From a virus, in the IMG/VR virus record IMGVR_UViG_3300032282_001824, positions 1 to 27,004 of that record: DNA of 27,004 nucleotides, one strand, 5' to 3'. The position numbers and the translations under genes are program-made. A model generated the notes under the pieces. It did not search any database. It saw only the letters and a list, made by a program, of their open reading frames with translations, and was not told where the DNA came from. Positions 21,869 through 25,181 of this stretch are shown here, in pieces. The stretch's first letter is position 1. Every line of letters starts with the position of its first letter.

Positions 21869-22843
21869 TTAATAATTGTTATAATTTTTTGGATTTGAAC
21901 CCCAACGAATGCGCGCGCCTTGTTTTGGTTGCAACAACGGAATGTCTGCCGTAATTGCGTTATTTTGTCCGCCGGCTTCTTTTAACCAATCCAAACAATA
22001 CATGTAATTGTCTTTTCGTAATTGCGGAATGTTGTTTGGTGCAATTCTCATGTGTATTTTGTACAAAACAATGTCAATTAAAAACGCGACTAATTGCTGA
22101 CTGCGATTGTCGCCTTTAATCCACGTAATCGGTAACCATGTATTTATATCTGTTCCGGGAACAACATTACCCGTTCCGTCAACAAATGAAAAATATAATT
22201 GATTATTATAATTTACAATTTCATCTGTTCCATAATTATAATTTGGAACATAATTTGGAAAATTTGAAGGATTTTGATAACAATTATATCCGTAAAATGA
22301 ATAATCTACCCCATTTGACCAATATTTTGATGCAATGTTTACATCTGTCGGAATAACGTTTTTAACATCTGTCAGGCATTTATAAACTTTGTTTTTGTAA
22401 AATACAATATCGCCCTTTTGATATTGTGTGCTGTATGAATAACGCGGATAAGGCGATTGAACAAAAAATAAATCAAATTGTTGACCTACTAATTGCCAAT
22501 TTAAAGGATTAAATGTTTCAGGCGTTGTTATTTCATTTATACAAGAATAAACATTTCCGTTATACAATGTGTTTTGACCAATAACATACGTTAAAGTTTG
22601 ATTATAAGCCGTTGCATTTAACTCTATCAAATCATTTGCATAATAACGCCCGTTATTTACAAAAGTTCCTATTTCTCTAAATTCATCATCAATATCGTAT
22701 CGTTGTACCAAATATGAAATCATTTCCGCCCGGCTTTCCAATTCACATGACAAACGAACAAAATCATTGCTTTGCGTTATTTGTGTCAATTGCTGTTCCT
22801 GAATCCGAAAATTATAATAGTCTTGTAATCGTAAATAACCCAT
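21869..22843 (-). CDS. Mu gp36-like head-tail protein with three carbohydrate-binding-like inserts
   Basis: ATG at 22843 is chosen; a TTG two codons upstream is the only alternative. The 324-aa protein has a gp36 (DUF1320)-type frame: N-terminal helix with SCELESRAEMISYLVQRYDI (32-51), and C-terminal LVAFLIDIVLYKIHMRIAPN (251-270) followed by YCLDWLKEAGG. Mu gp36 is only about half this size. The extra residues (about 80-242) form three CBM5/12-like units: YVIGQNTLYNGNVYSC, YQKGDIVFYKNKVYKC and YGTDEIVNYNNQLYFS, each followed after 15-25 residues by a W. The insert DNA is AT-rich and CpG-poor. The protein likely sits at the head-tail joint. Confidence 0.65.
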   Translation of the reverse strand: MGYLRLQDYYNFRIQEQQLTQITQSNDFVRLSCELESRAEMISYLVQRYDIDDEFREIGTFVNNGRYYANDLIELNATAYNQTLTYVIGQNTLYNGNVYSCINEITTPETFNPLNWQLVGQQFDLFFVQSPYPRYSYSTQYQKGDIVFYKNKVYKCLTDVKNVIPTDVNIASKYWSNGVDYSFYGYNCYQNPSNFPNYVPNYNYGTDEIVNYNNQLYFSFVDGTGNVVPGTDINTWLPITWIKGDNRSQQLVAFLIDIVLYKIHMRIAPNNIPQLRKDNYMYCLDWLKEAGGQNNAITADIPLLQPKQGARIRWGSNPKNYNNY

Positions 22844-22901
22844 AATCAACGAAATTAATTTGATTTGTTGAAATTAGTATTTTTTTACTATATGAAAAAC
22901 G

Positions 22902-25181
22902 TCAATAACCATGTTTTGAATGTTTGTTTTTTCCAACCGTTGCAATGATCGCGTCCGTTCCTTTTTGGTATGTTAAATAATCGTTTGCGAATGCCATGCA
23001 AACCAAATAATCAAATGTGTCGGAACAATTATGTACTAAAATATTATTTGCAAAATATTCATGATAATCTTCTACTTGAATATCATAAACCATTTTTATA
23101 TCTTTCTCTGTATTTTCTTGCGTTATATTTGTTTTTGCATTTTGAAGTACATATTTTATGAATCTTGAATGTTGTTTTAAAAACCTCATTGCAATTAATA
23201 CATTTTTTTTCAATTTCTGTATCATAAAACAATGTGTTTTTAACATGTAATTTATGCCATTCCGAACCTTTTTCTGACTTATGCCATTCAATTGCTTTTG
23301 GTCTTGCATATTTTTCAAGTTTTTCATTACATTCATTTTTTTCAAAATCTGTTTTTTGATTATAATGTAACTTATGATGTTCAATTGAAGAAATACATTT
23401 AAGATTGTGAATATCATTGTTAAGATGATTTCCGTCAATATGATGAATATGATGTTTTTTAGGTATTTGACCAATTTCTGTAATGTATTTATAAATATGA
23501 AGCCTTGTTTTTTTTCTTTCTCCATTAATAATTGCCCATCCACTAAAATATTTTGATTCACTTCCTTTTTTGTTTGGATATCTGTGGAATTTACTTCCGT
23601 TATAAATAATTGTTTCTCGCATATTATATTTTTTATATCATCAAATATACAAAAAATACCCTTTTGTATCTGACTAATAGGCGTAAAATCATTATTTTTT
23701 TCCCATATTTTATGATTTGGAGTACATGTAATTATGTTTTTACCTATTCTATAAGTATTTACTTTTTTGTAGCCATTATTATATACTTTTATTACTTTTT
23801 TATATCCTTTTCTTGTTAATACTAAATCATTTATAGATATTTCATCTATTCTTTTATAACCGCAAATTGTTTTTATTAATGTTTCTCCAACAAAACAATG
23901 TCCGTATTTTTCAAATGTAACGCCGTTAATTGATTCCTTTTCCTTTTTCTTTGTCCCGTCTGCGTCCTCTTGTAAATTGTTGAAATCGCGAATTGAATTT
24001 TTACAACTTTCGTCCAATTCAAAAGTTATTCCGCTAAATTGTTTGTCGAAAATATGATTGATAAAACGTCCACGCATAACAACGGACGGGTTCGACATGG
24101 GTACGCGCAATTGTGGTTTATATTTTCGCAAATAGTGTAAAATCAACGTGAAAAAATTCTGTCCCTTTTCCAACTTGGTATCGCTTTTCCGGCTTGTTGC
24201 GTCGCCGTAAATAAACAATCCGGTCGCGTGTTCAAAATATTCGCGTTCGATTGTCTGACATAATATTTCAACGGTGTTGTTCGGTGTTTCCAAACAAAAT
24301 TCATGTATTTGTTTGATTGATTTTCCGGCTATCTGATAAACGGTTGCGGTAATGTACGGCTTAACGTTTTCGTCAAATGAAATGTGTAACGGAATGTTTG
24401 GATTGTATTTGCATTCCTTAACGTGTTTGTCTGCGCTGAAACATTTATAAAATTCGCCGCCGGTGCGCAATTCAATGTCCCAATTGCCCAAAACATAAAC
24501 TTCATATTCATATTTCGGCAAATCCTTTAAACTATCAATGTAATCCTTTGGAATGTGCGGATTGTCAAATATTCGCGACGGAATATACAACCAACGTTCG
24601 TTCAATTCGCCTTTTGTGTACGGATAATAAAACATGTCGCGAACCCAATTTTTTGCCGGGTTACATGTACCCATTATTTTTTTAGGCGGTTGTTTTGGAT
24701 TTGGATTTGTTATTGATTTGGGAATAATGTAACTGCCGGCGCGTTCCAATGCTTTGTAAAACGATTTTTCGTTTAACTCGTTTATTTCTTCCAACAAAAA
24801 CCCGTTTACCTCTAACCCTTTCCAACGGTTCAAATCTTTGTCGGTGTCGTAATTTTCCGAAAAAAATATTATTTGCGATCCGTTTTCACATGTCACAACT
24901 TGCGTTTCCTGATTGTACGATTTTATGAATTTGTCGGGTTTTATTTTGTTGAATGACGGTATTGTATTTCGTTTTAATGTTGGCAAATCCTTTCGGACAA
25001 CTGCCCAACGTGAACCCGGATAAACTTTACACAACAAAAATATTGCGCCCAATCCGGCAAATGTTTTTCCGCCACGAATCGCGCCACCATACAATACAAA
25101 ATCGTATTTATTTGAAAAAACCGCCTCAAAAAATTCGTCTTGTTTCGGGAATGATTCAAACAGTATTTGTTTATTCGACAT
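22902..25181 (-). CDS. Terminase large subunit (TerL) precursor interrupted by an intein
   Basis: The precursor is 759 aa; after splicing the ATPase-nuclease would be 469 aa (1-428 plus 719-759). Walker A is GAIRGGKT (33-40), the Walker B-type motif is GFLLEEINE (127-135) and the coupling motif GTCNP is at 171-175. Nuclease acidic residues are D270 (SFDENVKP), D327 (IYGDATSRK) and D721 (CSDTFDYLVC). The intein lies between H428 and C719, directly before the third acidic residue, so the unspliced protein should be inactive. TerL packages DNA into proheads through the portal. It overlaps the small-subunit gene by one base. Confidence 0.92.
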   Translation of the reverse strand: MSNKQILFESFPKQDEFFEAVFSNKYDFVLYGGAIRGGKTFAGLGAIFLLCKVYPGSRWAVVRKDLPTLKRNTIPSFNKIKPDKFIKSYNQETQVVTCENGSQIIFFSENYDTDKDLNRWKGLEVNGFLLEEINELNEKSFYKALERAGSYIIPKSITNPNPKQPPKKIMGTCNPAKNWVRDMFYYPYTKGELNERWLYIPSRIFDNPHIPKDYIDSLKDLPKYEYEVYVLGNWDIELRTGGEFYKCFSADKHVKECKYNPNIPLHISFDENVKPYITATVYQIAGKSIKQIHEFCLETPNNTVEILCQTIEREYFEHATGLFIYGDATSRKSDTKLEKGQNFFTLILHYLRKYKPQLRVPMSNPSVVMRGRFINHIFDKQFSGITFELDESCKNSIRDFNNLQEDADGTKKKEKESINGVTFEKYGHCFVGETLIKTICGYKRIDEISINDLVLTRKGYKKVIKVYNNGYKKVNTYRIGKNIITCTPNHKIWEKNNDFTPISQIQKGIFCIFDDIKNIICEKQLFITEVNSTDIQTKKEVNQNILVDGQLLMEKEKKQGFIFINTLQKLVKYLKNIIFIILTEIILTMIFTILNVFLQLNIISYIIIKKQILKKMNVMKNLKNMQDQKQLNGISQKKVRNGINYMLKTHCFMIQKLKKNVLIAMRFLKQHSRFIKYVLQNAKTNITQENTEKDIKMVYDIQVEDYHEYFANNILVHNCSDTFDYLVCMAFANDYLTYQKGTDAIIATVGKNKHSKHGY
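23028..23897 (-). other. Intein in TerL (residues 429-718)
   Basis: A 290-residue protein-splicing element. Block A begins with C429 (CFVGETLIKT), block B is ITCTPNHKIW with the catalytic T487-x-x-H490, and blocks F/G run VYDIQVEDYHEYFANNILVH with penultimate H717, terminal N718 and a C719 nucleophile in the downstream extein. All residues needed for class 1 splicing are present. The middle (about 520-695) does not look like a LAGLIDADG or HNH domain in this frame; it is I/K/N/L-rich, includes a hydrophobic run (about 575-610) and coincides with a different-frame HNH gene. DNA here is about 25 % G+C against nearer 45 % in nearby TerL DNA. Confidence 0.92.
23083..23622 (-). CDS. HNH homing endonuclease nested out of frame inside the intein
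   Basis: A complete 179-aa ORF (ATG at 23622, stop at 23083-23085) in a frame different from TerL and the intein. It starts MRETIIYNGSKFHRYPNKKG, typical of phage HNH endonucleases. The HNH core is HHIHHIDGNHLNNDIHNL (57-74) with later H82/H83, and a C-terminal zinc ribbon has C141-x2-C144 and C158-x3-C162, followed by a basic tail. It spans intein residues about 521-700, between splicing blocks B and F. A TATATTTG element lies about 20 bp upstream of the ATG, so it may be made from its own transcript. It likely cuts intein-less terL alleles and spreads the element. Confidence 0.85.
   Translation of the reverse strand: MRETIIYNGSKFHRYPNKKGSESKYFSGWAIINGERKKTRLHIYKYITEIGQIPKKHHIHHIDGNHLNNDIHNLKCISSIEHHKLHYNQKTDFEKNECNEKLEKYARPKAIEWHKSEKGSEWHKLHVKNTLFYDTEIEKKCINCNEVFKTTFKIHKICTSKCKNKYNARKYRERYKNGL

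Follow-up and report, generated by a model that had tools for sequence, protein, structure and literature searches.

How an intein can enclose a complete endonuclease gene in a reading frame other than its own, with its own frame open from end to end, is the question raised by the terL gene of a viral contig, IMG/VR record IMGVR_UViG_3300032282_001824. The window refers here to the whole stretch of DNA that was analysed, 27,004 nucleotides in length. The initial annotation, which was made from the letters alone, described an HNH endonuclease gene nested out of frame within an intein of the large terminase subunit (TerL), and proposed that this was either a missing intermediate between the known arrangements of inteins and endonucleases or a new arrangement. 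The explanation favored here, which is considered very probable, is that a phage terL intein carries its homing endonuclease as an overprinted gene, where contiguous translation and splicing would give TerL and internal initiation would give the free HNH protein.

The terL Intein of the Window and Its Inner Gene

The coordinates of terL, its intein and the inner gene are listed in Table 1. The splicing blocks described at the two ends of the intein are complete, with C429 (base 23897), block B T487-x-x-H490 (TPNH), H717-N718 (N718 at base 23028) and C719, and the class 1 intein residue set is thus present: Cys1, the block B TxxH, the penultimate His, the C-terminal Asn and a +1 Cys. The outer (intein) frame matches Pfam Intein_splicing with an E-value of 1.5e-8 and a score of 35.0 bits, just below the gathering score of 35.8, while the inner frame matches Pfam HNH_3 (E 5e-9) and has an HNH endonuclease as its PHROG match. 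The separately started HNH gene and the intein frame that stays open through it were likewise found as described. The host gene is a single unbroken ORF, unlike that of a split intein or fractured gene, and the endonuclease is out of frame with the splicing blocks, unlike that of a canonical intein containing a homing endonuclease (HEN).

Table 1. Positions of terL, the intein and the inner HNH gene in the window.
Feature	Position	Strand	Remarks
terL, large terminase subunit gene, intein included	22902..25181	-	single open frame of 759 aa without internal stops; matches PHROG terminase large subunit (E 3.8e-25)
Intein, contiguous, 290 aa, Cys1 to Asn290	23028..23897	-	open frame end to end; insertion point follows EKYGH, within the nuclease domain of TerL
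N-terminal splicing part of intein, blocks A and B (TxxH)	23623..23897	-	upstream of the HNH start
HNH endonuclease gene, 179 aa, stop included	23083..23622	-	own ATG at 23622-23620; offset 2 relative to the intein frame
HNH stop codon TGA	23083..23085	-	lies across TAT GAT, which encodes Tyr-Asp in block F of the intein
C-terminal splicing part, block F VYDIQVEDYHEYFANNILVHN, His-Asn at end	23028..23090	-	from sequence blocks and intein model
+1 extein residue Cys719	23025..23027	-	Thr in the intein-less allele L002

Two further observations were made in the window. PHROG 35162, a 232-aa family listed as of "unknown function," matches TerL residues 566-670, where the intein frame shadows the HNH gene, and also the last 232 residues of the terL product of another locus (L254), and this family may be partly a frame shadow. 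Beside the portal gene, at 21869-22849, a protein is encoded that has two CBM_5_12 carbohydrate-binding stretches and a weak match to Mu Gp36.

Structure prediction was applied to both proteins. The HNH model has a pLDDT of 92.5 and its best PDB match is I-HmuI (1u3e), with a probability of 0.99 but an E-value of 0.013; a profile search of PDB sequences with the HNH returned no match. For the intein, an AlphaFold2 model built with 62 sequences gave ten-residue confidence means of 92-98 for residues 1-90, 84 for residues 91-100 and 97 for residues 271-290. Between these parts, the means are 55, 40, 41, 47, and 61 through residue 150 and 44-71 for residues 191-270; residues 151-190 (86, 89, 91, and 90) form a predicted helix amid this low-confidence insert. 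The model matches HINT structures, best of all the gp41-1 intein (6qaz, E 1.9e-7), and the splicing halves of the window intein are accordingly predicted to adopt the HINT fold. One strand of the fold may be atypical, because the HNH coding sequence overwrites the stretch 5' of block F.

Close Relatives and the Nested Family

A second copy was found in another contig (L001), which has the same nested layout and differs from the window by 21 substitutions across the intein, with no gap there. Within the HNH region there are 18 substitutions, no indel, and no stop in either frame. A comparison with intein-less terL relatives, which had been proposed as a check, was provided by L002, an empty allele in which terL has the precise junction GH|T-SDTF in place of the GH|intein|C-SDTF of the window.

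Further nested inteins were recovered by several searches. A first scan with the whole TerL found two loci only, and a TerL-profile scan returned mostly intein-less terL genes. A DNA pattern combining the intein end and TerL gave ten loci with the nested layout, including the L001 contig, and three mini-inteins. The HNH protein alignment was then searched against viral and genome contigs, with frame disregarded. Among 96 loci having an N block, an HNH and a C block, 85 show one continuous outer ORF, and these represent 73 distinct terL inteins, the window's included, which form 55 clusters at 60% HNH identity. The database search proposed initially thus returned TerL inteins of the same layout in number, and the locus is not a lone oddity; the nested layout is the commonest one found for this HNH family. 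In all 73 nested inteins, the HNH is at offset 2 and Cys1 and the final Asn are present; the +1 residue is Cys in 67, Ser in 5, and Thr in 1. All ten outer ORFs that were checked match terminase large subunit families. Homologues with the HNH always in frame had been named initially as evidence that would count against the reading; among the loci retrieved by the HNH protein search, no in-frame HNH-intein fusion was found.

The record titles of the nested loci, mostly metagenome bins, name Bacteroidota, Acidobacteriota, Nitrospirota, Patescibacteria, a Thermoplasmatales archaeon, and others. Two complete named phage genomes, Tetrasphaera phage TJE1 and Acinetobacter phage Highwayman, have the nested layout, with the HNH unannotated within terL, and in Rhodobacteraceae phage LS06-2018-MD07 it likewise lies under the terL annotation. 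Beyond the 73, eight loci were judged nested by reading their translations (L256, L259, L287, L208, L245, L277, L284, and L258), including partial ones: the L208 contig stops in block F, and L245 and L284 begin inside the intein, the N block of L284 being unseen. Seven of the eight have the usual offset. The exception is the terL intein of L258 (1832-4123), with the HNH in the other alternate frame, where the usual frame contains ten stops and its own outer frame none, which suggests a second origin or a frame change. Another locus (L261) is like the nested form but with a single frameshift, and it was excluded from the count.

Other States of the HNH Family

The same HNH family was also found outside the nested layout. 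In fractured terL loci, mostly from Bacillota, the break is at the end of the N-intein and is followed by a free HNH and then by the C-intein with the end of TerL. The HNH adjoins an intein-less terL in phages PAE1, CL2, SN1, and EauM-23, and a terL with a mini-intein in L184. Two mini-inteins (L170 and L171) align with the nested intein of L168 except for a loss of 522 nt, and the first and last HNH codons are kept; judged by this alignment, the L170 mini-intein is a clear deletion derivative of the nested form. In the HNH tree, 19 state changes were counted over six groups, with many weak branches. The initial idea of a missing intermediate is plausible and in part shown by this occurrence in fractured, intein-less and mini-intein loci and by the several state changes, which may have run in either direction. 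It seems reasonably probable that overprinted inteins constitute an ancient and widespread class, in which the HNH lies in a fixed alternate frame of a contiguous splicing intein with the conserved block F as its stop, and whose links to free-standing endonucleases, mini-inteins, and split inteins are events of gain, deletion, and fracture.

Side observations concern three of the loci. L049 (2166-5067) contains a fractured DnaB/gp41-type helicase gene with an extra mini-intein in the N-half, and the C-half ORF there begins in overlap with the HNH stop codon. In L282 (3856-4598) and L212 (3423-4260), a complete terL is followed by a free HNH, after which the 3' end of terL occurs once more (in L212, for example, GDCQRYDLCNFEYTTFKSLGHYQ and GDCKRYDLCNFEYTTFKNLGHYQ), as though the element brought an end of the gene with it.

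The proximity of the free HNHs of this family to terL raises the alternative that the HNH serves DNA packaging together with the terminase rather than homing, and HNH proteins near terL were indeed reported as packaging components (Kala et al., 2014, cited in PMC12613952). Such a role is nevertheless improbable for this family: the HNH is missing in the close relative L002, which has an intact terL, and deleted in L170 and L171, and both the likeness to the homing nuclease I-HmuI and the location inside an intein speak against it as well.

Start and Stop Signals of the HNH Gene

The HNH start codon is ATG in 68 of the 73 nested inteins. Among cluster representatives, a Shine-Dalgarno 4-mer was found at 22 of 51 HNH starts, as compared with 66 of 911 other ATGs of the same inteins (p 2e-11); the start in the window has an A/T-rich leader without such a motif. 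These signals bear on the possibility that the HNH is made as a fusion with the N-intein, by programmed ribosomal frameshifting from the terL frame and not from its own start. A short overlap, as this would need, does exist, the HNH frame being open for a median of 8 codons upstream of the start in the family, and A-rich runs occur near the start in the window. The upstream opening is, however, only 1-2 codons in some loci, and the start codon stands at the domain edge with the Shine-Dalgarno enrichment located there, so that frameshifting is distinctly unlikely. Across the family, a dedicated HNH start and selection on the HNH protein are supported by these sequence comparisons and by those of the next section. 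The initial proposal of a new arrangement, in which the supply of endonuclease is uncoupled from splicing, fits an HNH gene that has its own start, its own stop, and, in many relatives, its own Shine-Dalgarno sequence. An internal TAnnTTTG promoter, of the Bacteroidota type, was also considered, as TATATTTG lies 5' of the HNH start in several loci, but it is not claimed, since the same residues, FCIF, are also present in the mini-intein of L166.

The HNH stop usually lies inside block F, 55 nt before the intein end in 31/73 and 43 nt in 21/73 (52/73 together). In the sequences read, the stop at 55 nt spans Tyr-Asp or Tyr-Asn codons, and that of L173, at 43 nt, an Ile-Glu pair. In the window, an ATG in the outer frame (ATGGTTTATGA) overlaps the HNH stop, just 5' of block F. 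Translation could restart there to give a separate C-half and hence a split intein acting in trans, as in fractured genes, and the C-halves of L049, the gp41-type helicase locus, and of the terL relatives that are fractured do begin in this region. Splicing in trans is nonetheless distinctly improbable for the window, as a C-intein made by such a restart would be no more than 22 residues long and the outer frame is open in 73 nested inteins, which a purely split mode would not need.

The Open Outer Frame and Selection on the HNH Protein

In the window, the openness of the intein frame across the HNH gene exceeds what chance would give. When the gene was recoded under a constant HNH protein, the outer frame was open in none of 4000 recodings made with phage codon usage, in 0.5% of those made with the HNH's own codon usage, and in 0.15% after synonymous swaps; the estimate varies from under 1 in 4000 up to 0.5% because the null models differ. 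The longest stop-free run in the equivalent frame of 20 other genes of the window is 87 codons. Over the 73 nested genes, synonymous swaps are expected to introduce a mean of 2.8 stops per gene, and about 2.5 of 55 clusters would be expected to be open where 55 of 55 were observed, a comparison that is conditional and gives no probability for the family, since an open outer ORF was part of the definition of a nested locus and relatives do not count independently. A comparison that does not rest on this definition is given by the 85 of 96 loci with a continuous outer ORF, whereas non-nested homologues mostly contain 2-17 stops in the equivalent frame; the zero-stop exceptions include L212 and loci later read as nested.

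Substitutions between relatives distinguish the two frames. Position 3 of the HNH codons is the largest substitution class in 16 of 17 pairs with 70-98% nucleotide identity, several of which share members. In the pair L233/L217, 38 of 52 substitutions are at HNH position 3, and the ratio of nonsynonymous to synonymous changes is 12/36 in the HNH frame and 45/4 in the outer frame. The position-3 excess is milder in the group of L186, L189, and L190, and the window/L001 pair is the exception, with 8/4/6 substitutions at HNH codon positions 1/2/3, 12 of them nonsynonymous and 5-6, by two counts, synonymous. As this pair has no position-3 bias, purifying selection is shown for the family and not for the pair. 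Judged by these substitutions, the HNH protein is conserved across the family, while the intein-frame translation drifts yet stays free of stops, and the linker seems to be selected, in the intein frame, chiefly for the absence of a stop codon.

The weak selection signal in the window/L001 pair and the existence of a deletion derivative would also fit an HNH that is merely a decaying passenger. This is very unlikely in view of the 29 invariant columns, HNH residues included, across 11 diverse HNHs and of the silent HNH changes, which are in excess in several close pairs. Sequencing or assembly indels that displaced an ordinary in-frame HNH domain, which do occur in metagenomic contigs and may be resembled by the single frameshift of L261, have practically no weight as an explanation and are rejected because homologues share the layout, including the gapless second contig, 73 inteins at one offset, and complete named phage genomes, besides the open outer frame and the HNH's own start and stop.

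Proposed Mechanism

For the overprinted gene, the following sequence of steps is proposed. The terL mRNA would be read through to give a precursor whose two splicing halves are connected by a linker of about 180 frame-shadow residues. Together, these halves would form a HINT domain that removes the entire insert and ligates TerL, as expected from the complete catalytic residues. Initiation at the internal ATG, just past the N-terminal splicing half and at a two-base offset, would yield the free HNH, whose translation would end at the stop that the conserved Tyr-Asp codons in block F provide. The HNH would then cut the intein-less terL of co-infecting relatives, and repair would copy in the intein together with the HNH gene.

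Comparison with Known Systems

The nested layout was unreported in the literature found on overlapping or out-of-frame intein endonucleases; a bioRxiv preprint on non-canonical actinophage inteins (10.1101/2025.01.02.630785) may cover related cases. The nested inteins offer a large natural set of long overlapping genes, of which one frame is conserved as protein and the other is apparently mainly kept open, and they show that annotation misses nested HNHs, as in TJE1 and Highwayman. They also offer a possible route, open to testing, that links free endonuclease genes, mini-inteins, and split inteins and bears on the origin of these.

I-HmuI is encoded in a group I intron. HNH homing endonucleases of its type share the HNH fold with the window HNH, but the sequence similarity is too low for a PDB profile match. 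Work by Dassa and colleagues in 2009 reportedly described fractured genes that encode split inteins and are accompanied by a free-standing homing endonuclease, as in the gp41-type helicase. The fractured gp41-type and terL loci (L049 and the fractured terL loci) resemble the window in having a separate endonuclease gene between intein halves, a related HNH, and gp41-1 as the nearest fold; the intein frame of the window is continuous, in contrast, so splicing would be in cis.

Mycobacteriophage TerL inteins are located in the ATPase domain, and the tested members splice (PMC5050341). Both they and the window intein are hosted by a phage terminase, but the latter sits in the nuclease domain instead. 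An out-of-frame endonuclease is also known from the ShiLan domain, a hidden HNH in actinophage DNA methylases (PMC11855218; also PMC12613952). There too the HNH ORF occupies another frame of an insertion, the host gene is kept open, and the presence/absence pattern is that of a mobile element; the ShiLan insertion, however, lacks splicing blocks and is thought to be retained in the protein, whereas the window HNH is enclosed by a complete intein. Canonical HEN inteins include an in-frame HNH intein (Dalgaard et al., 1997, cited in PMC5050341) and have their HENs at a conserved insertion site (PMC6801210). As in these, the endonuclease of the window lies between the N- and C-terminal splicing parts, but it is no domain of the intein protein, and the nested layout represents a third way for an intein to carry an endonuclease, neither fused to it nor placed between split halves.
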